NCBI GenBank assembly: GCA_029263455.1
Contig: JAJCXM010000023.1
Span: forward strand, 1 to 64,000
Length of the DNA: 64,000 nt
Origin: Holophagae bacterium
Lineage (GTDB): Bacteria > Acidobacteriota > Holophagae > Acanthopleuribacterales > Acanthopleuribacteraceae
Direction: 5' to 3'
Shown: in pieces, positions 35,699 to 47,581 of the stretch
How positions within the stretch are numbered: position 1 is the first letter of the stretch
How the letters are laid out: each line of letters starts with the position of its first letter
Notes under the pieces: model-generated
Seen by the model: only the letters and a program-made list of their open reading frames with translations
Database searches by the model: none
Told to the model about the DNA's origin: nothing
Made by a program: the position numbers and the translations under genes

Positions 35699-36269
35699 AA
35701 TAGGCCTCCTCAATGGAGATTAACCTCATCTTTTCAGTCTCGAGTTATTCTCCCGTCAACTGCTCAGTTAATTAGGGAACGACTCATTTGCCTCCCTTCG
35801 CGACGTACCCCACGGAAGTTGCGCCAATTAGAATGAGCGTTCCCACTCCGTTCGCCCAAAGCATTCCTTCATTGGAATGCGGTGGCTCACGATCGTTTTG
35901 GGGCGACGCTATCCAAAGGTCACGGCTTTCACGGCGAAGCTTGCTTCGTGAGCGCTGATGTGGGGACTTTGATATAGACATTAATAAGCGATTCGGCTGC
36001 AACGCTCGACGAGCAAGCTCATCGATGTCACGTCTTCACCACCCGCAAACACTTCGATCAAAGCTGCTGCAAGCCGCAGCACTCCATATAGGAGCCCCAT
36101 CTCACCTGGCGTGGTGAAAATTTGGTGGGACATTCCCTGTCTATTGAGGATAGTTTTACTGGAGTCTTTTTGCCTGCCGCTTAGTTCAGTCAGTCGACTG
36201 AGCATCGTTGCTTATGGTGAATTTGTTTTCGGTGAACTACTGTTAATGCTAGCCGGAGGTTATTCACTC
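35699..36269. other. Intergenic region with a repeat and no convincing gene
   Basis: This ~570-base region separates the astacin and beta-lactamase-fold genes. It contains copy 2 of the 88-bp dispersed repeat (35999-36086). A minus-strand frame at 35784-36002 could encode 72 residues with a hydrophobic end (GTLILIGATSVGYVAKGG) but lacks a ribosome binding site and starts inside the repeat. It may be debris of a deleted gene. Confidence 0.5.
35999..36086 (-). repeat. Dispersed 88-bp repeat, copy 2 (coding remnant)
   Basis: Partner of copy 1 at 31402-31489, with seven differences in 88 bases. The minus-strand reading is VLRLAAALIEVFAGGED and then SLLVERC, continuing to a stop at 35981. An ATG at 36097 (MGLLYGVLRL) sits just upstream on that strand, but no ribosome binding site accompanies it. 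Confidence 0.6.
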
Positions 36270-37430
36270 ATGTTGAAACAGGCTTGTGTTCGCCGACTCA
36301 TTTGGGTTCTCATTCTGACGTTAACGTTCAGCTGCTCCAATGATTCATCCTCTCCTGAAGCTGACGCATTTGCCAACCTGGCTGCCGACATCAAGGCCGT
36401 CATGGAGCGCCAAGGCGTGCCGCAACTCTCTGCGATTATCACCGATAAAGATGGCTTAATTTGGCAGAGCCATCAAGCCAGCAACGGCTTGACGCCACCG
36501 CGCTCCGACGCTTTGTTTGCCATGGGATCAATCTCTAAATTGGTGACAGCGGTGGCCTTGATGCAACTCGTCGAAGCGGGCCAGGTGGATTTGCAGGCGG
36601 ACATCAATCAGTACCTAGGCTTTAATGTGCGCAACCGCCATTTCCCTGATTCCCCGATCACAGCCTTCCACTTGCTTACCCACAATTCCGGCATGGCGAG
36701 TAACCCGCCCGGCGATGTCGCCGAAGGCCAGTTGGTGTTTGAAGGCACGGTCGATCTGGACTGGATCCCACATTTCTTGGCCACCGAGGGACAACAGAGT
36801 TCGGATAGCTTGTGGCGCTCCGTCAATCCTGGTGACGGTCAAGCCACCTCCATCCAAAGCTCAAACATGGGCGTCGCCCTCGTTGGCGCGTTGGTTGAGG
36901 CGGTGAGCGGCCAGGACTTTGGTGTCTATGCAAAACAGGAGATTTTTGAGCCGTTGGGCATGCAGGACAGTGGTTTTAGGTTGTCTGATATAGTTGTTAA
37001 TCGGCTGTTGGCGCTGTATGGCGATAGCTTAAACGAAACGGTTGCCCCCTATGACGTCTATGTTTATCCGGCCTTCTCTCTGAAATGCAGTATGCCGGAT
37101 TTGCAACGTTTCTTAATGGCGATCATGAACGGAGGTTCGTTGAATGGGAATCGGATTTTGCGGACCGAGACCGTCGCGCAAATGTTAGAGAACCAGTTTG
37201 TGGCGACCAATTTGCCTTTTTCATCTTCGATCTCATTGATGTGGCGCCAGCCCTTTAATCAAGCCTGGATTGGGCATACAGGCGGCGTACCAGGAGCAAG
37301 CACGGTCATGGATTTTCATCCACAAAGGGGATTCGGGGTCATTATCTTGACGAACCAAGCGGGTCATAGCTCGATCTATCCGGGCGGCGAGATATATAAC
37401 CTAATCCACACAGCGGCTTTGGCCAACTGA
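36270..37430 (+). CDS. Beta-lactamase-fold serine hydrolase lipoprotein
   Basis: About 386 residues from the ATG at 36270 with GGAGGT nine bases upstream; the frame is open for 53 more codons but lacks support there. The N-terminus is a signal with a lipoprotein-like Cys (LTFSC, Cys22). The nucleophile motif FAMGSISK places Ser87 and Lys90 as the SxxK pair of class C beta-lactamase/esterase-like proteins, and HTGG appears near the end as the KTG equivalent. The usual YSN motif reads QSSNMG: the tyrosine is replaced by serine, so catalysis may be altered. Role unknown, perhaps esterase or peptidase activity in the periplasm. It lies 173 bases before the biosynthetic cluster. Confidence 0.85.
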   Translation: MLKQACVRRLIWVLILTLTFSCSNDSSSPEADAFANLAADIKAVMERQGVPQLSAIITDKDGLIWQSHQASNGLTPPRSDALFAMGSISKLVTAVALMQLVEAGQVDLQADINQYLGFNVRNRHFPDSPITAFHLLTHNSGMASNPPGDVAEGQLVFEGTVDLDWIPHFLATEGQQSSDSLWRSVNPGDGQATSIQSSNMGVALVGALVEAVSGQDFGVYAKQEIFEPLGMQDSGFRLSDIVVNRLLALYGDSLNETVAPYDVYVYPAFSLKCSMPDLQRFLMAIMNGGSLNGNRILRTETVAQMLENQFVATNLPFSSSISLMWRQPFNQAWIGHTGGVPGASTVMDFHPQRGFGVIILTNQAGHSSIYPGGEIYNLIHTAALAN

Positions 37431-37603: not shown

Positions 37604-38569
37604 ATGAATCAAGCCAACCGTTTCTTGAGTCAACCTAAAGCTGCCTTGCCACGCTGCCCGCAATCCTGGTACATCCTCGGGCCGTCTAGTATTAGGCCAG
37701 GCAGGGTACATCACTTTGACATGTTAGGTCGCAGCTTGGTGTGGTTTAGGCCCTTAGATAAATCGCCTCCTCAAGTGTTGTCAGGTCACTGTCCGCATAT
37801 GGGTGTGCATCTGAAGAATGGCACAGTCGTAGACGCAGGAATCCGCTGCCCGCTCCACCATTGGGTTGTCTCTAAGGACGGCGTGGTTTCGCCGCGTTGT
37901 GATGTTGCATTTGACGATGTCCCCCAGCTTTCCAAGTACGGCGTTGTTTTCGCACATGTCGGCGACGATCCCTGTTTTGAAGCACCTGCCTTTTTGGATG
38001 ATGTGCAGCGTACCTATTTACCGGGTCGGCCGATCGAGTTTTCAGTTCCCTGGTATGTCCCATTGGTTAATGCCTTTGATATGAATCATTTACACACAAT
38101 CCACGGTCGCATTTTGACCCAGCCACCCAAAATCGAATATTTAGGGCCCTGGACTTTTCGACTGACCTACGTTTCTCGAGTCACAGGGCGAGGGTTATCC
38201 AATCGTTTAATGGCATGGTTATCAGGTAACGAAATTCGAATTAGCATGACCTGTCACGGCGGCACGACCCTGATTGCTGAATCTGAGATTGGTCAGTTTA
38301 AGACGTGCATGATGATGAGTTTCCGTCCCACCGAAGAAGGCGTAAGTCTCTTCCCTTTTTATGGCATTCAAGGAACCGGCCTAGGCCGGAAATTTGCCGT
38401 ACGTTTGACGCGATTCCTTTTCAATTCGTTCCTACGGAAAGATATTCAAATACTTGACGGTATTCGTTTTCGCGCCGACCACCTTGGTCCTGGAGACGAG
38501 ACCCTGGCTAGGTTCTTGGAATTCCTGCAAGGTCTTCCATTCAATGAAACACAAGAGGTAGCAGTATGA
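37604..38569 (+). CDS. Rieske non-heme iron oxygenase, first gene of the isoprenoid/lipid cluster
   Basis: A 321-residue Rieske oxygenase. The 2Fe-2S motif is C63-P-H65 with 16 residues to C82-P-L-H85. The mononuclear iron site follows as NAFDMNHLHTIH with Asp159, His162 and His167 (DxxHxxxxH). The length and single-chain layout resemble oxygenases acting on sterols, chlorophyll or other hydrophobic rings (KshA/PaO-like) rather than multi-subunit dioxygenases. No membrane anchor is clear. It needs an external reductase, not seen nearby. Its stop overlaps the next start by four bases. A hydroxylation or oxidative cleavage of the pathway's hydrophobic intermediate is a reasonable inference. Confidence 0.9.
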   Translation: MNQANRFLSQPKAALPRCPQSWYILGPSSIRPGRVHHFDMLGRSLVWFRPLDKSPPQVLSGHCPHMGVHLKNGTVVDAGIRCPLHHWVVSKDGVVSPRCDVAFDDVPQLSKYGVVFAHVGDDPCFEAPAFLDDVQRTYLPGRPIEFSVPWYVPLVNAFDMNHLHTIHGRILTQPPKIEYLGPWTFRLTYVSRVTGRGLSNRLMAWLSGNEIRISMTCHGGTTLIAESEIGQFKTCMMMSFRPTEEGVSLFPFYGIQGTGLGRKFAVRLTRFLFNSFLRKDIQILDGIRFRADHLGPGDETLARFLEFLQGLPFNETQEVAV

Positions 38570-39147
38570 GAACTTTTATTGCATTGTTATTTGCCACAAC
38601 CGTTTATGCGCAGGTCAGTTCCGAGGATGAGGTGCATGATGCTTTGCGCTCACTGAAACAGAAAATGTCTGACGCACTGAATCAACGTGACCTTGAGGAA
38701 CTGCTCAAACATGTGACCGATGACGTCGTTTTCACAACTATGAACAGTGATGTGTGCCACGGATCGCAGGAGATCCGCGACTATTTCGACAAGATGATGA
38801 CCGGTCCTGACGCCATTGTTAAAGATTTGAAACTGTCGTTTGAGGCGGGCGCGTTGGCACGGCTCTATTCAGATACGACCGGCATGGCCTATGGCAGCTC
38901 GGCAGACAAGTACGTCTTAACAAGTGGCCGTGAGTTTGAGATTCAAGGTCGCTGGACATGTGTCATTGTCAAACAAGATGATCAATGGAAGGTTAGCGCG
39001 TTCCACTATTCGGCCAACCTGTTTGACAATGCAATCCTCAACACGCTGCAAGGGCTTCTGCTCAAAGTGGGCATTGCGGCGGCAGGCATTGGCTTGCTGG
39101 TAGGCGGACTAATTGGCTGGTTTGGAGGAAAGAGACGCAAGGCGTGA
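38566..39147 (+). CDS. Exported NTF2/SnoaL-like protein with C-terminal membrane anchor
   Basis: A 193-residue protein with a signal peptide (ATTVYAQ). Its central domain is NTF2-like: a KQKMSDALNQRDLEELLKHV helix pair, the strand DDVVFTTMNSDVCHG, then GREFEIQGRWTCVIVKQDDQW. A C-terminal membrane helix (GIAAAGIGLLVGGLIGWFGG) is followed by a short basic tail, so the domain is anchored on the periplasmic face. NTF2-like folds serve as binding proteins or as isomerases/cyclases (SnoaL). Four-base overlaps on both sides tie it to the Rieske and desaturase genes. The catalytic role is unknown. Confidence 0.78.
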   Translation: MRTFIALLFATTVYAQVSSEDEVHDALRSLKQKMSDALNQRDLEELLKHVTDDVVFTTMNSDVCHGSQEIRDYFDKMMTGPDAIVKDLKLSFEAGALARLYSDTTGMAYGSSADKYVLTSGREFEIQGRWTCVIVKQDDQWKVSAFHYSANLFDNAILNTLQGLLLKVGIAAAGIGLLVGGLIGWFGGKRRKA

Positions 39148-40076
39148 TCAACCACCCCATTCCAAAACAGTTAAACCTGCTGCTCGGATATTTGGTCCCC
39201 AGTTTGGCTCTTTTTTGGCTATGGTTGGCCGCACACAGTGGCGGCTGGTTGTTTGCGTTGGCTGTGCTGGCATTTGGCTTCACAAATAATACGGTCTTTT
39301 CGCTCTTACACGAAGCTGTACACCGTAACTTTCACCCGAGCACGGGTATCAATGAATTCTTTGGCCGCTTCTTTGCCGCTTTCTTCCCCACCGGCCTGAC
39401 CATGCAACGCGTGTTTCACCTTAGCCACCATCAACGCAACCGGACCGAATCAGAACAGTTTGACTATATTCGCCCGGGCGATAATAAGTGGCTTAAGCGC
39501 GCTCAGTGGTATTGCATCCTGACCGGTTTTTATTGGCCCTTTCTACCCTTAGGCGCAGCCGTCTTTGCCCTATGGCCCGGGTTCTTCTTTCTGCCCATAT
39601 TCTCATCACCGCATGGCCGTCAAACGGGAGCTGCCGACATGTTCAGCGGGCTCAAAAAACACGCGCCTGGGAAGATTCGACTGGAGAATTTACTGAGTTT
39701 CGCTTTTCAGTTCGCGGTCTTTTTTGTGCTCGACCTTAGTCTCTTAAGTTGGGCGGCGTGTTATGTATGTTTCGCTCTGATGTGGAGTTCATTGCAGTAC
39801 GCAGATCATGCTTTTAGCCCGCTCGACGTCAAGAACGGGGCCTGGAATTTGCGCATTCACCCCTGGATTCGTTGGATTTACCTGAACTACCACTTCCATC
39901 GGACTCACCATCAAAGGCCGGAACTGAGTTGGTTCTATTTGCCCAGATACACGGAGAAGTCAAACTCAGACCCTTCCTTTCTAGGCGTGTATTTGGCGAT
40001 GTGGCGTGGTCCGCGGCCGCTGCCCGTTAATACGCCAGCTTCAAGTGTTCAAACAACGAGACATACAGATGGGTAA
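39144..40076 (+). CDS. Membrane fatty-acid desaturase-family enzyme
   Basis: A 310-residue integral membrane di-iron enzyme beginning with a GTG that overlaps the previous stop. The three histidine boxes are present: HEAVH at 56-60, HLSHH at 92-96 and HFHRTHH near 252-258. Four or so membrane helices separate them. The family includes acyl-lipid desaturases and carotenoid ketolases/hydroxylases, so in this context it may act on an isoprenoid or an acyl chain. The stop overlaps the next gene by eight bases. Confidence 0.9.
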   Translation: MINHPIPKQLNLLLGYLVPSLALFWLWLAAHSGGWLFALAVLAFGFTNNTVFSLLHEAVHRNFHPSTGINEFFGRFFAAFFPTGLTMQRVFHLSHHQRNRTESEQFDYIRPGDNKWLKRAQWYCILTGFYWPFLPLGAAVFALWPGFFFLPIFSSPHGRQTGAADMFSGLKKHAPGKIRLENLLSFAFQFAVFFVLDLSLLSWAACYVCFALMWSSLQYADHAFSPLDVKNGAWNLRIHPWIRWIYLNYHFHRTHHQRPELSWFYLPRYTEKSNSDPSFLGVYLAMWRGPRPLPVNTPASSVQTTRHTDG

Positions 40077-41484
40077 ACGTCTACAACTGTGCCTCGCGTT
40101 TTCTGGCTGGTTTGCTGTCCTGTTTGTTGGGTCAGATATGTTGGCTCACGGAAGAGCGACTCCTGCGCCGCATTTTCAATGGGAACTGGAACTACCGTTT
40201 TTGGTTTCAGCCGTATGGATCTATTTAAGTCTTAACTTGGTCTTGTTGATCTCTGCTTGGCGACTTCCCTACTCGATTCTGCGTAGTCTTGTTTTGTGTG
40301 CGGGCCTGCAGGTGCTGATAGCGGCGCTTCTTTTCACACTTTGGCCAATGACGCTGGCGTACCCATCACCGGAACACAACGGAACGGCATATCAACTAGC
40401 GGATTGGCTTAATCTCACCTATAACCTTGTGCCTTCGTTGCATGTGAGTTTTGCGATCACTTTGGCTTTTGCTTGGTTTGTGTATCGTCGCCAATTGAAG
40501 TGGGTCGTGTCCATATGGGCGGCGGCTGTTGTTTTGTCGACGGTCTTTACCCATCAACACCACTTAGTAGATGTCTTGACGGGAGCAGTCATGGCGGCTT
40601 TGTTTTGTGGTTACCTGTTCAGGTCGGCTTGTGATGAGCTGTTCTGGCAAACCGCCAGAGCCGAGTGGTTGTGTCAAAAGGCGTTTTGTCACTTTACGCT
40701 ACGACACCGCAGGTATGCGCTCATTTGGTTGATGATGATGGTGCAAAGTGTCAGATCCTGGCGAAGAACAAGAAAAGTTCGGTATGCGTTTTGTTGGGCT
40801 CAATGGATTGATGACTTGTTGGATGGTGATTGGCGATGTTCGGAGGAACCACTCTACCTAATAAATTCGCTGGTAAACAGCTGGGACCAGGGTCAGTTTG
40901 ATGACAACGATTTGTCGTTCCTAGCTTCTATGCTCTATCGGGAATGCGAATCATTGGACCATGCAATGGAGGTTCGGGGATTGTTTTCCCAACTGATTAA
41001 GACAATGTCAAAAGATAGAGTCAGGGTTTTGGGCCAAGAAGCTTGGCCGCAAGATCAGCTCGTAGAACACCTGGGTACGACCTTTACCTTGAGTCTGGAC
41101 TTGCTGTTAATCTTCAGTGCATCTAGCTCGCGTGCTTCCAGGTGGAACGAGCTCATAAAAGCGTTGGCTTGGTGTTCAGTGGCCCGCGACCTGGAAGAGG
41201 ATTTGGCAAAAGGCCTGATAAATATTCCCCAACGAGTATGGCAGTCCTTTGCTGTTAAGCCGTGCACCTGGTCCGAATGTTTGAGTAACACGGACTTTTG
41301 CGAATGGTACTTCCCTTATCAAAGAGATGCTCTTGAAAACTTGGCACTTGCCGATGCTGCTGTGATGATATGTGACGACCCGCAAACGAAACGTGTGCTT
41401 AGACTGTTCACGAAAAGTATCGGCCGTTACCGAGTTCGGGAACCACGTCTTGATGCGATACGTCGACTTGAGGAAAGCACATGA
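40069..41484 (+). CDS. PAP2 phosphatase fused to a squalene/phytoene-synthase-like domain
   Basis: About 471 residues from the ATG at 40069; an in-frame upstream start at 40006 is unlikely because it lies inside the desaturase gene. Residues ~1-185 are membrane helices with PAP2/AUR1-type motifs: PSLHVS (122-127) and HHLVD (His164, Asp168). The rest is a soluble helical domain with two Asp-rich motifs: DDLLD at 248-252 and RDLEEDLAKGLINIPQ (Asp374, Asp378), the spacing and wording of squalene/phytoene synthases. A single chain would thus handle isoprenoid diphosphates by condensation and/or dephosphorylation. I know of no established example of this fusion. The first PAP2 motif (KxxxxxxRP) is not evident. 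Coupled to both neighbours. Confidence 0.8.
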   Translation: MGKRLQLCLAFSGWFAVLFVGSDMLAHGRATPAPHFQWELELPFLVSAVWIYLSLNLVLLISAWRLPYSILRSLVLCAGLQVLIAALLFTLWPMTLAYPSPEHNGTAYQLADWLNLTYNLVPSLHVSFAITLAFAWFVYRRQLKWVVSIWAAAVVLSTVFTHQHHLVDVLTGAVMAALFCGYLFRSACDELFWQTARAEWLCQKAFCHFTLRHRRYALIWLMMMVQSVRSWRRTRKVRYAFCWAQWIDDLLDGDWRCSEEPLYLINSLVNSWDQGQFDDNDLSFLASMLYRECESLDHAMEVRGLFSQLIKTMSKDRVRVLGQEAWPQDQLVEHLGTTFTLSLDLLLIFSASSSRASRWNELIKALAWCSVARDLEEDLAKGLINIPQRVWQSFAVKPCTWSECLSNTDFCEWYFPYQRDALENLALADAAVMICDDPQTKRVLRLFTKSIGRYRVREPRLDAIRRLEEST

Positions 41485-42845
41485 AGATAGCTTTGATCTC
41501 ACCCAAGGGACCGCTTTACCGTTTTCGCAAGGGTATATTCAAGAAATCACTGCGTTATATGCCACTGACGCTTCCAACACTGGCCGCCTTGGTGCCTGCA
41601 GATCTCAATGCCGAAATCGTCTGCATCGATGAAGGTATTCAAGAGGTTGATTTGAATCTGGCCGTCGATATCGTGGCCATGACCGTGATCACTGGAACAG
41701 CACCTCGCTGTTATGAACTGGCAGCCCATTTCCGATCAAGAGGCATGGTCGTGGTTTTAGGTGGACCGCACGTCACTCTTCTGCCCGACGAGGCTCAGAA
41801 ACATGCGGATGCGGTTGTTTTGGGTTACGCGGAAAACAGCTGGCCAAATCTTTTACGCGACTTCGCTAAGGGACAAATGGAGAGCCGTTATAAACAAGAA
41901 ACCGATTTGGTTCTTAGCGGCTACCCTTTACCTGATCGATCGGTGCTTCCCAAGCATCGTTATCTAACGGATAACGTGTTTGAGGCCACGCGAGCCTGCA
42001 TCCATAATTGCAATTTTTGTGTGGTTCCCAGCGCTTGGGGTCGACGTCCGTTTCAAAAACCAATCGAAGCCGTGGTTGACGATCTGAAACGAAGTGGTGC
42101 GCGCCGAGCGATATTTGTTGATCTAAATCTGATTGCTGACCGTGATTACGCGGCACGGTTCTTTGAAGCGCTCATTCCGCTGCGTATTTCTTGGTATGGA
42201 CTTGCTACAACCTTACTGTGTAAGGACGAGCCTCTATTAGAGCTTGCCGCTCGATCTGGATGTCGCGGTTTGCTGATGGGTTTCGAATCCATTTCAAGCC
42301 ATGCATTGCGAGCGAGTGGCAAAGGCTTTAATAGACCTGATGACTATGCCTCCATCGTGCAATCGCTACACAAACACGGCATCGCGTTGCAAGCATGTTT
42401 TGTATTCGGGTTAGATGACGACAAACCAGATGTCTTCTCAAAGACAGCCGATCTGGTGGTCAAGCTAGGCATCGATTTACCCAGATTCGCGGTGCTGACG
42501 CCGTTTCCTGGGACGCCTATTTTTGAGCAACTGGAGAGACAAGGTCGTATTTTGCATCAGGATTGGGGATCGTACGATGGACAGCATGTGGTCTTTCAGC
42601 CAGCGCAGATGACGATCGAAGAATTACAAAAAGGGACCGAACACGCGTGGCGCAAGAGTTACAGTTTGCCGAATATCTGGCAGCGCTTGCGTAAAACAGC
42701 GGCTCCGCTCGCAACTGCTTTAGCGACCAATCTCGCCTATCGCCATTACGCGTACCATTTGAGCCAATTCTATACCTGCGACATAATGATGCCAACAAAC
42801 GAGAGAGAACCATGGTCCCGTCAAAAATCCGACCTTTCCGCCTGA
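41481..42845 (+). CDS. Cobalamin-binding radical SAM enzyme 1
   Basis: A 454-residue class B-type radical SAM enzyme. The N-terminal ~140 residues form a B12-binding Rossmann-like domain (MKIALISPKG, VVVLGGPHVTLLPDEA). The iron-sulfur motif is C173-IHN-C177-NF-C180. The barrel continues with LLMGFESISSHAL and LQACFVFGLDDD, typical of the P-methyltransferase/BchE-like superfamily. Such enzymes methylate or cyclise unactivated carbons, often in lipid, hopanoid or pigment synthesis (for example hopanoid methylases). ATGA overlap with the previous gene. It is a tandem paralogue of the next gene. Confidence 0.93.
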   Translation: MKIALISPKGPLYRFRKGIFKKSLRYMPLTLPTLAALVPADLNAEIVCIDEGIQEVDLNLAVDIVAMTVITGTAPRCYELAAHFRSRGMVVVLGGPHVTLLPDEAQKHADAVVLGYAENSWPNLLRDFAKGQMESRYKQETDLVLSGYPLPDRSVLPKHRYLTDNVFEATRACIHNCNFCVVPSAWGRRPFQKPIEAVVDDLKRSGARRAIFVDLNLIADRDYAARFFEALIPLRISWYGLATTLLCKDEPLLELAARSGCRGLLMGFESISSHALRASGKGFNRPDDYASIVQSLHKHGIALQACFVFGLDDDKPDVFSKTADLVVKLGIDLPRFAVLTPFPGTPIFEQLERQGRILHQDWGSYDGQHVVFQPAQMTIEELQKGTEHAWRKSYSLPNIWQRLRKTAAPLATALATNLAYRHYAYHLSQFYTCDIMMPTNEREPWSRQKSDLSA

Positions 42846-44218
42846 CATTCGTTCACCCGTGCGTTGGTCGTCACCTCGGGATGAAGAAGTATATTCGCAC
42901 TTGGCAAATGGAACCACTATCAGTGGCCACCTTGGCAGCATTGGTACCGTCCGATGTGGAAGTGCGTTTTTATGATGACCGCCTTGAGGCGATACCCTTT
43001 GACGAAGCAACCGACTTGGTCTGCATCAGTGTAGAAACTTATACGGCCAAACGAGCCTATCAAATCTCGTCTAGTTTTCGAGCGCATGGAGTTCCAGTCG
43101 TGATGGGCGGCTACCACGCCACGCTGTGCCCTGAGGAGGTGGCCGGCTATTGCGAGAGTCTGGTCACTGGCGAAGCAGAGAGCGTTTTTCTAGAACTGCT
43201 TGATGACTATCGTTTTGGGCGTCCCAAGGCAAAATACGTTGGTAGCCCTAAACATGATCTAGCTATCCTGCCTAAGCGCGAGATTTACGGTCAAAAGAAA
43301 TATTTGCCCCTCGATTTGGTGGAGTTCGCGCGTGGCTGCCGCTTTCGCTGCGACTTTTGCGCGGTTATGAGCTTCCACAATTCGACCCATCACCATCGTC
43401 CCATCGATGTTGTGGTGAAAGAAATTGAGTCGCTTAAGCGCAACCGTCTGATCTTCTTCATCGACGACAACATGACGTGCAATATTGAGGCGGCAAAAGA
43501 ATTCATGCGCGCGATCGAACCGCTCAAGATCAAGTGGGTAAGCCAAACGGCGATCCATGTTGCGCATGACGAGGAAGCACTACAGCTCATGAAGCGATCT
43601 GGCTGCCAGGGTGTGTTAGTTGGACTGGAATCGTTGAATCCGGAGACGTTGAAAACGATGCGTAAGGGGTTCAACTTGATGCAGGGCGGAGCGGCAACAG
43701 CCTTGGCAAATCTCAGGAATCACGGACTGCGTATCTATGGAACTTTTGTATTTGGTTACGATACGGATACGGAAACCACCATCTCTGAGACCGTCGATTT
43801 TGCGCGAGAACAAGGGCTGTTTATCGGAGCTTTTAATCACATCACGCCATTTCCCGGCACACCCTTATACAAGCGTATGCAGCAAGAGAATCGGCTTGTC
43901 TACGATGCTTGGTGGTTGGATGATCGCTATCGCTATAACGAAATTCCATTCCTGCCGTCAAAAATGAGCCGCGAGGAACTGGCGGACCGTTGTGTACAGG
44001 CGCGCACCGATTTTTATTGTTGGTCAAGCATACTGCAACGCGTTAAACACAAAGTACAATGGCAATCTGGTCATATGTTGTTTAACTACTTCCTGATTAA
44101 TTGGATGCATCAACGCGATATATCGGGACGAAACGGGCTTCCACTCGGAGATATGAATTGGCAAGGAGAATGGCTGCCCAGTGAACACGCCGAGACAGCA
44201 ATCAGCATGGGCCGTTGA
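42812..44218 (+). CDS. Cobalamin-binding radical SAM enzyme 2
   Basis: A 468-residue paralogue of the preceding enzyme with a B12-binding N-terminal domain (VPVVMGGYHATLCPEEV) and an iron-sulfur motif C176-RFR-C180-DF-C183. LVGLESLNPETLKTMRKGFN and IYGTFVFGYDTDTE mark the barrel. The C-terminal extension is Trp-rich. The start lies 34 bases inside the previous gene, with a purine-rich GAGAGA stretch before it. Two different radical SAM steps on the same product, or a heteromeric enzyme, are both possible. Confidence 0.93.
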   Translation: MVPSKIRPFRLTFVHPCVGRHLGMKKYIRTWQMEPLSVATLAALVPSDVEVRFYDDRLEAIPFDEATDLVCISVETYTAKRAYQISSSFRAHGVPVVMGGYHATLCPEEVAGYCESLVTGEAESVFLELLDDYRFGRPKAKYVGSPKHDLAILPKREIYGQKKYLPLDLVEFARGCRFRCDFCAVMSFHNSTHHHRPIDVVVKEIESLKRNRLIFFIDDNMTCNIEAAKEFMRAIEPLKIKWVSQTAIHVAHDEEALQLMKRSGCQGVLVGLESLNPETLKTMRKGFNLMQGGAATALANLRNHGLRIYGTFVFGYDTDTETTISETVDFAREQGLFIGAFNHITPFPGTPLYKRMQQENRLVYDAWWLDDRYRYNEIPFLPSKMSREELADRCVQARTDFYCWSSILQRVKHKVQWQSGHMLFNYFLINWMHQRDISGRNGLPLGDMNWQGEWLPSEHAETAISMGR

Positions 44219-45299
44219 GCCCGCTTGTCCGCTTGATGAGCCCTCCATTCAGGAATTACTAGCCGAAAAGCCCATGCGTGGTCAGATGTGGCTGAGCCTG
44301 CAACGGTCGCCATCATTTCTCGATTCACTGACGATTGAAGGTCATAGAAATACGTGCCATGTGGCTAGAGATAAGACAGGTCGTGTGTTGGGAATGTGCA
44401 GTCGCTCTGTTCGCCGGGTGTGGTTCAACGGAGAACCAGCCGAGCTTGGTTATCTGGGTAACCTTCGGACAAGCAACGCAATAAAAGGACGGATTGCCCC
44501 ATTGGCTGCGGGATTCGCTGCCTGTATGAACGATCACCAAGCAAATGAGCTTGAGTTTGATATCACCTCAATATTGGCCGATAACAAGGAAGCTCAGCGA
44601 CTATTGGAGCGAGGTCTGTCGGCGTTACCGCGCTATTCGTATCTAGCTCCCTTTCGCACATTTGTCATGCCGGTGAAGCAAATGCGGATGCTGAAAGCAG
44701 GGCGGGAAGTTGCTGCGGTCGATTCGCTATGGCTGACGCCGTACGTGCAATTCTTGAATCACAGGAACCGCGATTACCAGTTTGCACCAATATGGAGAGA
44801 AGACGATTTCAGTAAACCACTATTGCGCAATCTCCCAGTCACAAATTGCTACATGATTCGTGACAATGAAAGAGTCCTGGCCACAGGGGCACTTTGGGAT
44901 CAGCGCGCCTTTAAGCAAACACGAATCCTGGGTTACGAACCGCGGATCAGGCACTTCCGACACCTCATTAATGTCGGCTTAACGATGTTGCGGCAACCGC
45001 GATTACCTGCCGTTGGCTCGTCCATCAATTTGGCCTATGTCTTTCAACTCCAGGTGCTTGACAACGATCCCAGTCTGTTCGTTCACATGTTGGACCATCT
45101 TGTTGCGTCGGCCCGATCTAAAGGCTTAGATTATCTAGTGATAGGCATGGACCCGAGGCAGACCTTAGCTGAAACCATCATCAAGCGTTGCAAGGCACGT
45201 ATCATTGAGAGCCGTATTTATGCGGTCAGTCGGACCTGCAATCAGGTGCCCCAATTAGACCCTGAAGACAGGGTTGGGTTGGAGGTTGCTACGCTATGA
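44181..45299 (+). CDS. GNAT-fold protein 1 of the cluster
   Basis: A 372-residue protein beginning with GTG 38 bases inside the previous gene. The N-terminal half has the GNAT outline: HVARDKTGRVLGMCSRSVRR, then AELGYLGNLRTSNAIKGR and LLERGLSALP. The C-terminal half (SINLAYVFQLQVLDNDP, LDYLVIGMDPRQTLAE) looks like a second GNAT-like fold. The classical acyl-CoA loop (RGxG/A) is weak, so acyl transfer is inferred rather than proved. ATGA overlap with the next gene. Confidence 0.72.
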   Translation: MNTPRQQSAWAVEPACPLDEPSIQELLAEKPMRGQMWLSLQRSPSFLDSLTIEGHRNTCHVARDKTGRVLGMCSRSVRRVWFNGEPAELGYLGNLRTSNAIKGRIAPLAAGFAACMNDHQANELEFDITSILADNKEAQRLLERGLSALPRYSYLAPFRTFVMPVKQMRMLKAGREVAAVDSLWLTPYVQFLNHRNRDYQFAPIWREDDFSKPLLRNLPVTNCYMIRDNERVLATGALWDQRAFKQTRILGYEPRIRHFRHLINVGLTMLRQPRLPAVGSSINLAYVFQLQVLDNDPSLFVHMLDHLVASARSKGLDYLVIGMDPRQTLAETIIKRCKARIIESRIYAVSRTCNQVPQLDPEDRVGLEVATL

Positions 45300-46003
45300 A
45301 GGGCCAATTTATCGCTCGCGCAGCGTTGAGCGCAACCGCCATCCATGAACTCTATCGTCTGTTTGAGCAGCATTTTGATGGCGTTGACGAAGCAGGATTC
45401 ATGGAGGATCTGAATCAGAAAACCGGTGTTTTGGTGGTGTATGACGACGATGACCAGCTGGTTGGATTCTCAACCATTTTGTTCGAACAACTCACCATCA
45501 GGAAGCAAGCGATCGCGATGGTCTATTCCGGCGATACGATCATGGACCCACGTGCATGGAACAGCTCAGCCCTGGCGCGCTGCTGGATTCGCACCGTATT
45601 GAGCTTCCAAGATCAATGTCCTGATCGACGCTTGTACTGGCTATTGATTTCGTCTGGCATACGGACCTATCGATTCCTGCCTGCATTTTGGCAACGATTT
45701 TTCCCTCACCCATTTCAGGTAGAAACCGAGCTCGGCGAACTGGCTACTGCGTTGGCAAAGCGCTTGTTTGTAGAACAGTATGATCAGGTGACAGGCGTGA
45801 TTCGCTTCAAACAACCACACATGCTCAAAGCACACTTGCAGGACCTGCCACCACGTTTGCTCAAAGACGAATTCGTCACCTTTTTTCAACAAGCTAATCC
45901 CAACCATCGAGCAGGTGACGAATTGGTATGTCTTACCGAAATCTCAGAATCCAACTTGACCCGAGCTGGCTGGCGCATGGTCAAGGGTAAATCACCGGTC
46001 TAG
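45296..46003 (+). CDS. GNAT-like protein 2 of the cluster
   Basis: A 235-residue soluble protein coupled to the previous gene by four bases. It starts KGQFIARAALSATAIHELYR and has a GNAT-like central strand pair (GVLVVYDDDDQLVGFSTILF, then AIAMVYSGDTIMDPRAW) and a long helical C-terminal half with FLPAFWQRFFPHP. No catalytic residues stand out. A hydrophobic-substrate acyltransferase-like role would suit the neighbours but is speculative. Confidence 0.65.
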   Translation: MKGQFIARAALSATAIHELYRLFEQHFDGVDEAGFMEDLNQKTGVLVVYDDDDQLVGFSTILFEQLTIRKQAIAMVYSGDTIMDPRAWNSSALARCWIRTVLSFQDQCPDRRLYWLLISSGIRTYRFLPAFWQRFFPHPFQVETELGELATALAKRLFVEQYDQVTGVIRFKQPHMLKAHLQDLPPRLLKDEFVTFFQQANPNHRAGDELVCLTEISESNLTRAGWRMVKGKSPV

Positions 46004-46036
46004 TTTTATGGTTAAAGTCGCAGGGTTCATTCATCT

Positions 46037-47581
46037 ATGGTTCTAAAGCTGGCAGTTAATAAGGTTTGGAAGCGCTTTGCGAAGCGATCAGCAACTCAAT
46101 TTGTCCGTGCATTGCAAGAGCCTCAATTGACGCAAGACCTGCTGCTGACGAATCTCGTTGAGCAAAATGTGGGCACCCGCTTTGGGCGAGAGCACGGATT
46201 CAGTGACATCAAAGACTACGATGATTTTCAAGACAAAGTGCCGATTCGCCGTTACGAGGATTTTCTACCTTGGATAGATCGAATTCGGGCGGGTTCGCTC
46301 GCTGAACTCACCAAAGACGCGGTGACGCGGTTGCAGCCTAGTTCAGGCAGTGTGGGACCCGTCAAATGGATTCCCATGAACAAGTCCCTATTGCGATCTT
46401 TTCAAGAAGCAGTCTCTGCTTGGATATTTGACCTTTATCAACAACAGCCGCTAGTAATGGATGGCAGTGCCTATTGGTCACTTTCGCCGCAAATGAAAAT
46501 TCCAGAAACACAATCAGCCATCCCCTTGGGCTTTGAAGATGATTCCGCTTATGGCGGTCGATGGCTACAGCCTTTGATTAGAACACTTTGGCCCGTGCCT
46601 AAGGAGGTCCAATTTGCAGATGATCTCGAAGCTTTCCAAGAACTAACGCTTCTTTACCTGTTACAGGCTCAAGACCTTAGATTGATTAGTATTTGGCATC
46701 CCTCGTTCATGAAGCTTTTGTTAGACATGATGATGGCTCGCTGGGATTCATTGGTGAGAGGTTTGTACGACGGTAAGCGTTTCATTTGCGGTGACCGCCA
46801 ACTCGAAATAAGGAATAGGAAGGTGGCCAGACGACTCTTGAAACTTGACCCTGCTAACACTCAGTCGGTATGGCCAAAACTACTGCATATTAGTTGTTGG
46901 GCAGATGGTCATGCGCACACCGCCGCTGCCGATCTGCAGCGGATCTTTCCAGAAGCCGTACTTGCTCCAAAGAGTCTGCTCGCCACAGAAGGTTGTGTGT
47001 CGGTCCCATTCAACGGCGCTTGGCCGCTGGCCATCCGCAGCACTTTTTTGGAGTTTGAGGACCCTGAAGGCGTGATATTACGAGCACACCAACTTAGTCA
47101 AGCTGGCACTTACAAAGTGATTATGACAACGCCAGGCGGGCTCTACCGTTATCGACTGGATGATCAAATTACGGTTACCGGCTGGGCCGGTGCAACGCCT
47201 TCGGTTCGGTTCACGGGTAAGAGCGATTTTGTTTCGGATCTTGTAGGTGAGAAGTTGAACGAGGCTTTTGTGGCGTGTACGCTGAAGAACCTCAAGCTGG
47301 GTGGTTCATTGTTGGTTCCGGTGCGTGACCCGGCTCACTATCGACTTTTGCTTCATTCGAACGACATAGATGAAACAGGTCAGCTGGCTGCTCGTTTGGA
47401 CGGATTACTGCGTGAGAATCCCTATTACGCGCAGGCCCGTGATTTGGGTCAACTAAAAGCCATCGAAGTCGAGACGATTAACTACGACCCACAAAAGAAA
47501 CAGCTTATGCAAGCAGCCACGGACGGACGAGTCATGGGCAGCGTGAAGCTGTTGGCGCTTGCGAAAGCCGTTGACCGTTAG
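46037..47581 (+). CDS. GH3-family acyl-adenylating amide synthetase-like enzyme
   Basis: A 514-residue member of the GH3 family (ANL superfamily), known best from plant enzymes that adenylate jasmonate, auxin or benzoates and couple them to amino acids. The ATP-binding loop is LQPSSGSVGPVKWIPM (about 98-113), the second motif is LLATEGCVSVPF, and the third is GGLYRYRLDDQI. Length and motif order are standard. It follows the GNAT-like gene by 33 bases and closes the cluster. By analogy it would join a carboxylate made by the pathway to an amine. No ribosome binding site is obvious. Confidence 0.88.
   Translation: MVLKLAVNKVWKRFAKRSATQFVRALQEPQLTQDLLLTNLVEQNVGTRFGREHGFSDIKDYDDFQDKVPIRRYEDFLPWIDRIRAGSLAELTKDAVTRLQPSSGSVGPVKWIPMNKSLLRSFQEAVSAWIFDLYQQQPLVMDGSAYWSLSPQMKIPETQSAIPLGFEDDSAYGGRWLQPLIRTLWPVPKEVQFADDLEAFQELTLLYLLQAQDLRLISIWHPSFMKLLLDMMMARWDSLVRGLYDGKRFICGDRQLEIRNRKVARRLLKLDPANTQSVWPKLLHISCWADGHAHTAAADLQRIFPEAVLAPKSLLATEGCVSVPFNGAWPLAIRSTFLEFEDPEGVILRAHQLSQAGTYKVIMTTPGGLYRYRLDDQITVTGWAGATPSVRFTGKSDFVSDLVGEKLNEAFVACTLKNLKLGGSLLVPVRDPAHYRLLLHSNDIDETGQLAARLDGLLRENPYYAQARDLGQLKAIEVETINYDPQKKQLMQAATDGRVMGSVKLLALAKAVDR

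Follow-up and report, generated by a model that had tools for sequence, protein, structure and literature searches.

Chlorophyll E-ring cyclization can be carried out by either of two enzymes, the B12-binding radical S-adenosylmethionine (SAM) protein BchE, in which the oxygen is taken from water, or its O2-dependent counterpart, the iron oxygenase AcsF (PMC7242693). In N-myristoyltransferase (NMT), the C-terminal carboxylate serves as the catalytic base, a hallmark that was reviewed in 2016 as unique to NMT among the GNAT proteins (PMC4964394; PMC7048800). A third described system is that of OlsH, a characterized bacterial GH3 protein that makes N-acyl ornithine in the planctomycete Singulisphaera together with the alpha/beta hydrolase OlsI (PMC12493201). 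Here, we describe a nine-gene cluster at 37604-47581 of a 64,000-nucleotide (nt) stretch of Holophagae bacterium DNA ("the window"), which combines BchE-like, NMT-like and GH3 proteins with an oxygenase and membrane-linked accessory proteins. We consider it rather probable that these nine genes are one lineage's own edition of a biosynthetic cassette that is widely exchanged.

All nine collinear genes that the original prediction had placed here were found as open reading frames (ORFs) on the + strand. Its domain labels were mostly upheld when the window proteins were scanned against Pfam and NCBIfam, "above cut-off" referring to the family gathering scores. The genes are as follows (rSAM, B12-binding radical SAM enzyme; core, member of the conserved five-gene core).

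Gene 1, 37604..38569, + strand: Rieske [2Fe-2S] mononuclear-iron oxygenase, 321 amino acids (PF00355, E 1.1e-9)
Gene 2, 38566..39147, + strand: NTF2/SnoaL-fold protein, 193 amino acids (DUF4440, SnoaL, TIGR02246)
Gene 3, 39144..40076, + strand: membrane di-iron fatty acid desaturase/hydroxylase family, 310 amino acids (PF00487, E 9.5e-23)
Gene 4, 40069..41484, + strand: PAP2 phosphatase/phosphotransferase fused to a squalene/phytoene-synthase-like domain (PF01569, PAP2 E 4e-7; PF14378)
Gene 5 (rSAM1), 41481..42845, + strand: B12-binding radical SAM enzyme, 454 amino acids, core (PF02310 and PF04055 above cut-off)
Gene 6 (rSAM2), 42812..44218, + strand: B12-binding radical SAM enzyme, 468 amino acids, core (PF02310 and PF04055 above cut-off)
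Gene 7 (GNATa), 44181..45299, + strand: tandem-GNAT, predicted NMT-like N-acyltransferase, 372 amino acids, core (AlphaFold2 (AF2) model, fold search)
Gene 8 (GNATb), 45296..46003, + strand: GNAT-fold protein of a family without a Pfam model, 235 amino acids, core (AF2 model, remote GNAT folds)
Gene 9, 46037..47581, + strand: GH3-family ATP-dependent acyl-acid amido synthetase, 514 amino acids, core (PF03321, E 1.9e-39; GH3_M)

Most of these ORFs overlap by 4 to 38 nt, and genes 8 and 9 are separated by 33 nt. The source genome (G000; G and L numbers are our handles for genomes and loci) shares its genus with the Acidobacteria metagenome-assembled genome HKST-UBA04 (G001; locus L021, the same contig and coordinates as G061), in which all nine genes are kept in the same order and on the same strand at 47-75% identity. 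Because the flanks of L021 are unrelated, the unit ends as first drawn. The nine genes are thus one unit and not a chance assembly. A serine beta-lactamase-fold gene (PF00144) that immediately precedes the cluster on the + strand (36111-37430) is not conserved with it and is not part of the unit.

Within the family, the cluster is present in two of seven sampled genomes (G000 and G001), and the other members show at most 34% identity to rSAM2. With rSAM2 as the probe and strict thresholds, the cluster was found in the planctomycete class (17 of 398 genomes), in the Acidobacteriota (6 of 297) and, with more distant homologues included, in the Wallbacteria-type phylum (12 of 40). For a GNATb profile, the matches were 2 of 301 genomes in the Chloroflexota and 21 of 392 in the Planctomycetota. 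The 20-kb regions around the matches were retrieved and all gene families in them were mapped. The five-gene core (rSAM1, rSAM2, GNATa, GNATb and GH3) is complete in 39 genomes of the Acidobacteriota, Planctomycetota, Wallbacteria-type phylum and Chloroflexota, and the order rSAM1-rSAM2-GNATa-GNATb-GH3 is kept on a single strand in 36 loci (one Thermoanaerobaculia genome being counted twice). Across phyla, the rSAM2 orthologues are 44-77% identical to the window protein. Desaturase and NTF2 genes each lie near the core in 24 of the 39 genomes and PAP2 in 20, and the Wallbacteria-type genomes mostly carry the radical SAM, GNAT and GH3 genes only. In G191, G427 and G225, genes have been dropped or the cluster is split into two loci, the split halves co-occurring in the same genomes.

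The core was also traced outside these four phyla. A tblastn search of plasmid records revealed a complete set in a gull-derived strain of Citrobacter portucalensis, on an IncFIB/IncFII plasmid.

Citrobacter cluster, NZ_CP134684.1 51417-63512 (L196:16358-28453): 11 genes

The order here is GNATb, GH3, rSAM1, rSAM2, GNATa, rSAM3, rSAM4 (two further B12 radical SAM genes, discussed below), PAP2 and NTF2, with a fifth radical SAM gene and a desaturase gene on the opposite strand. With this copy the number of phyla rises to five, and horizontal movement of the cluster is indicated. The single pathway originally proposed for the nine genes, for which synteny conserved across genera had been named as the test, is thus strongly supported by 39 core-complete genomes and by five phyla, the Citrobacter plasmid included. 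No near copy of the Citrobacter-type cluster was detected in a nucleotide search of 5,426 E. coli genomes, and phage records and viral contigs gave no match to the cluster. On the plasmid, the cluster lies near an alpha-2-macroglobulin gene set. A further neighbor, a conserved secreted-looking protein of 450-490 amino acids without a Pfam match (L137:6229-7689, L138:12552-13955, L134:10585-11943), adjoins the cluster in six Wallbacteria-type genomes; it was rejected as a pathway enzyme, being secreted and lineage-specific by its look.

Could the Rieske oxygenase of the window and a pair of radical SAM enzymes be two solutions to the same step? In other genomes, the slot of the window's Rieske gene is taken by rSAM3 and rSAM4, a replacement that was first seen in planctomycete and Wallbacteria loci. 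Of the 39 core-complete genomes, the Rieske gene alone is present in 14 and rSAM4 alone in 16; 8 lack both, and 1 has the two together (Fisher p 2.5e-4 for the exclusion, a test that ignores kinship). The sole genome with both is Chloroflexota G1069 (L153:9328-9880), and its rSAM4 is an ORF of <200 codons with an internal deletion, in which the SAM-binding core is gone, leaving the N-terminus and the last 150 residues. This remnant lies beside the Rieske gene and a SPASM radical SAM gene, in a cluster that has also gained an AbiEi/AbiEii pair by insertion. In the Rieske-type genomes, rSAM4 is absent genome-wide. Furthermore, the Rieske type was forecast for three genomes (G217, G292 and G197) from a single rSAM2-like match in each, and all three forecasts were correct. 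On a tree of rSAM1 and rSAM2, the Rieske/rSAM4 state changes at least 7 times, and the exclusion holds between close sister genomes, e.g., L123/L124 and L023/L024. The membrane protein X4 occurs with rSAM4 in eight genomes and with Rieske in none, and X3 accompanies mainly Rieske (seven genomes, compared with one with rSAM4).

Both rSAM1 and rSAM2 have an N-terminal B12-binding domain, a radical SAM core and the CxxxCxxC motif, which is present in 45 of 46 rSAM1 and 52 of 53 rSAM2 homologues, and they are therefore B12-dependent radical SAM enzymes. The curated families nearest to the radical SAM proteins of the cluster are BchE and HpnJ. None of them is a member of the BchE family TIGR02026 (cut-off 481 bits), against which rSAM1 scores 65, rSAM2 94, rSAM3 120 and rSAM4 62 bits, the BchE model being the best curated match of rSAM3. 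The hopanoid enzymes HpnJ and HpnR and the family TIGR04072 (rSAM_ladder_B12) are likewise B12-binding radical SAM proteins that act on lipids, and rSAM2 scores 80-100 bits in this group; however, the cluster proteins reach at most 100, 65 and 83 bits, below the respective equivalog cut-offs of 578, 650 and 360 bits, and squalene-hopene cyclase, FabF and acyl carrier protein (ACP) genes were not found as recurrent members of the cluster. A ladderane-like pathway was set aside on the TIGR04072 scores and the lack of recurrent FabF/ACP genes, although no direct comparison with an anammox genome was made. Since an oxygenase takes the place of rSAM3/rSAM4 in other genomes, oxidation or hydroxylation is suggested for this step, in place of the methylation or cyclization originally proposed. 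We infer that rSAM3/rSAM4 and Rieske carry out equivalent oxidations, the former O2-free and the latter O2-dependent, in the way that a B12 radical SAM enzyme and an O2-dependent iron oxygenase are alternatives for one step in BchE and AcsF. The cluster differs from the chlorophyll system in that its oxygenase is a Rieske protein that two radical SAM enzymes together replace, and in that no tetrapyrrole genes were seen in it.

Three points weaken the case for such an equivalence. An independent-pairs test favors it, with Rieske moving opposite to rSAM4 in every informative pair (4-5 vs 0), but is of low power, its p of 0.0625 being the minimum for so few pairs. The Rieske proteins, whose CxH..CxxH motif is present in 23 of 23 homologues, are divergent among loci (21-29% identity in some) and maybe not all orthologous. 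In addition, Rieske and rSAM4 are both missing from the surroundings of the core in eight core-complete genomes (two of the eight neighborhoods being very short or incomplete), so that the swapped step is either not universal or performed by other enzymes in some genomes. These eight genomes, the variation in Rieske copies from 1 to 3, and the preference of X3 for Rieske and restriction of X4 to rSAM4 would also suit a branching pathway, in which Rieske and rSAM3/rSAM4 do different reactions and lead to different end products. Such branching is possible but doubtful, as it would have to accommodate the exclusion between close sisters and the decayed rSAM4 next to the Rieske gene in L153.

The last three genes of the cluster appear to form an amide-forming module. 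Scans of GNATa and GNATb with Pfam and PDB sequence profiles returned nothing useful, and their folds came from structure prediction. The AF2 model of GNATa (predicted local distance difference test score (pLDDT) 85) has a tandem-GNAT fold, for which the best PDB matches were the tandem GNAT MAB_4324 and a long run of NMTs; NMTs again dominated in the viral fold library BFVD. In Foldseek, the template modeling (TM) scores to NMT folds were mostly 0.55-0.65 at 7-12% identity. Furthermore, GNATa ends in Leu in the same column in 47 of 47 complete homologues and in the Citrobacter copy, whereas the last residue of the GNATb, rSAM2 and GH3 proteins is freely variable. GNATa resembles the eukaryotic NMT in its tandem-GNAT fold (TM ~0.6) and fixed C-terminal residue, which is Leu in the fungal enzyme too, but differs from it in being bacterial and distant in sequence and in that none of 19 GNATa members matches the Pfam NMT family. 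It probably acts on a small amine and not on a peptide. GNATb (AF2 model, pLDDT 90) shows remote GNAT folds, and none of its 19 members has a Pfam match. For the two GNAT-like proteins of the original prediction, the folds are upheld by the predicted structures, neither protein reaches a Pfam family above cut-off, and GNATa proves to be tandem and NMT-like.

The GH3 protein belongs to its family by a PF03321 score of 136 bits (gathering score 23.6), and its adenylation motifs are intact: motif III (GGLYRY) does not vary across 12 aligned homologues, and motif I (SGS/T) is present. Together with the characterized relative OlsH (PMC12493201), these motifs agree with the predicted role of GH3 as a coupler of a carboxylate to an amine. 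Among curated models, that of the lyso-ornithine lipid synthetase OlsH (NF052613) is the closest to the window protein, which is excluded from the OlsH family by its score of 56.4 bits (cut-off 620 bits), over the N-terminal part only.

Relatives of these three genes also occur apart from the radical SAM enzymes. In Acinetobacter baumannii X4-300 (L198:9159-16838), genes for HlyD, a major facilitator superfamily protein, GNATb, GH3, an outer-membrane channel and GNATa lie on one strand with no radical SAM gene. Because the trio here comes with an exporter and without a radical SAM gene, we regard GNATb-GH3-GNATa as a module of its own, the product of which may be exported. In such Acinetobacter and Burkholderia relatives, the final GNATa residue is Ile or Val. 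Upstream of the A. baumannii run lie an amidase gene and a gene for a LuxR-type regulator, and the 4 Mb record that holds it is listed as a plasmid in PLSDB though chromosome-sized. Similarly, GNATb, GNATa, a desaturase, GH3 and a Rieske-like gene are found together, without a radical SAM gene, in Burkholderia arboris (L199:12055-19622), and two Planctomycetota loci (L178:13070-17822 and L183:8788-17091) have GNATb-GH3-GNATa with a VanA-type Rieske and a very large protein, with FG-GAP repeats in L183, and again no radical SAM gene. The VanA-type Rieske and FG-GAP proteins of the Planctomycetota loci give no indication of a product.

We think it reasonably probable that the amide-forming module (the NMT-like transferase, GNATb and GH3) works together with the BchE-like radical enzymes toward a predicted acyl or isoprenoid amide. 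In the proposed pathway, an acyl chain (isoprenoid in the sub-lineage with the phytoene synthase domain) would be oxidized at unactivated carbons by the BchE-like radical SAM enzymes and membrane oxygenases, with Rieske (using O2) and rSAM3 plus rSAM4 (not using it) performing one and the same oxidation, in the way of AcsF and BchE in chlorophyll synthesis. GNATa would N-acylate an amine with acyl-CoA as the donor and its own C-terminal carboxylate as the base, in an NMT-like manner, and GNATb may carry out a related acyl transfer. GH3 would adenylate a carboxylate and couple it to an amine to give an amide-linked, lipid-like product, so that amide bonds would be made from two kinds of activated acyl group, the CoA thioester (GNATa) and the acyl adenylate (GH3). 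The NTF2 protein and PAP2 would act at the membrane: the former has an N-terminal signal-like stretch and, in 27 of 27 homologues, a C-terminal hydrophobic helix with a basic tail. The histidine boxes of the desaturase are present in 30 of 30 homologues. This scheme is weakened on three sides: a Foldseek TM of ~0.6 backs the fold of GNATa and not its function; GNATb, by eye, is without the usual GNAT acyl-CoA loop, so that its reaction is a guess; and the genes do not fix the substrate class, fatty acyl or isoprenoid.

An alternative is an aminolipid pathway resembling that of ornithine lipids: the GH3 product would be an N-acyl amino acid, which would receive its second acyl group from a GNAT and/or X3, and chain modification would fall to the radical SAM enzymes. 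The OlsH/OlsI pathway also has a bacterial GH3 amido synthetase in a lipid operon, and a possible counterpart of its alpha/beta hydrolase partner, X3 (alpha/beta-hydrolase-like, serine-hydrolase-like by eye), is present in 8 of 39 loci; the NMT-like N-acyltransferase would also suit such a pathway. On the other hand, X3 has no Pfam or PDB family match, the GH3 score against the OlsH model is far below its cut-off, and no OlsB, OlsF or OlsG homologue is found among the recurrent cluster genes; Pfam and NCBIfam scans of the nine window proteins likewise gave no member of the OlsB/OlsA or OlsF families. Moreover, ornithine lipids require no radical SAM enzymes, and the description of the OlsH/OlsI pathway includes no genes for radical SAM, GNAT, Rieske, PAP2 or desaturase proteins (PMC12493201). 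We therefore regard an aminolipid of this type as somewhat unlikely.

The chain itself had been predicted to be probably isoprenoid-derived, and gene 4 to be a PAP2-prenyl synthase fusion. The PAP2 half of this fusion is sound; the "prenyl synthase" half appears to be a remote squalene/phytoene synthase (SQS/PSY) domain, and although the ORF opens at GTG 40006, our reading of the sequence makes ATG 40069 the most likely start, with an 8-nt overlap with gene 3. The SQS/PSY half has no PF00494 match in the window protein, and its G061 orthologue, at 25.6 bits, falls just short of the cut-off of 26. The two DxxxD motifs do not vary among the four sequences identified, and an unfused relative matches HpnC. 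A fully isoprenoid pathway, in which the fusion would make and dephosphorylate a C30/C40 or shorter isoprenoid diphosphate for oxidation to an acid and amidation by GH3, could draw on this domain and on two further observations. The curated protein nearest to a related Rieske in L120 is the 4beta-methylsterol monooxygenase SdmA, though far below cut-off. In G199 (L115:12382-19900, L116:1-3555), a squalene/phytoene synthase, amine-oxidase-family desaturases, an acyltransferase, a GT2 protein and an ABC transporter lie between the cluster halves, a set that is staphyloxanthin-like by gene content; as this carotenoid-type set adjoins the cluster only in G199/G427, a carotenoid pathway was rejected and the set treated as a neighbor.

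Three results make the fully isoprenoid pathway unlikely. The SQS/PSY domain occurs in just 4 of the 39 core-complete genomes (fused in G000, G061 and G062, unfused beside PAP2 in G1126) and is absent from the core; PAP2 stands alone in most relatives, and in L184 the PAP2 and PSY genes are adjacent and unfused. Five genomes with the cluster (G066, G067, G069, G772 and G064) are without any PF00494 gene. In addition, the PAP2 motif, by our own reading of the sequence, resembles that of lipid phosphotransferases. An acyl lipid is indicated at least equally well by the NMT-like fold, PAP2 and the desaturase, so the original chain assignment is not sustained for the cassette as a whole; gene 4 suggests that the window's own lineage uses an isoprenoid chain. 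The remaining explanation, that unrelated operons lie side by side by chance with no common pathway, could appeal to the dropped genes and split loci of G191, G427 and G225 but is highly improbable, given that the order persists across 36 loci in four phyla, that a plasmid set exists in a fifth and that split halves co-occur within genomes.

All of the superfamilies involved are known; their combination, the Rieske/radical SAM swap and the NMT-like family appear new. In agreement with the original prediction, for which no described pathway with this gene set was known, no description of the combination was found in the open-access literature. We tentatively propose that the cluster makes an undescribed class of amide-linked bacterial lipid, encoded by a mobile cassette with 2-5 BchE-like radical SAM enzymes, a carboxylate-using counterpart of NMT, and O2-dependent and O2-free editions in at least five phyla.

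Conservation between phyla, the kept order and the enterobacterial plasmid copy mean that the pathway must make something useful. The cluster offers a further natural test, beside chlorophyll, of a B12 radical SAM step being exchanged for an oxygenase under O2. GNATa, as a bacterial tandem GNAT, may share the C-terminal-carboxylate mechanism that has been called unique to NMT, and with the Citrobacter copy the entire pathway becomes open to testing in laboratory enterobacteria.

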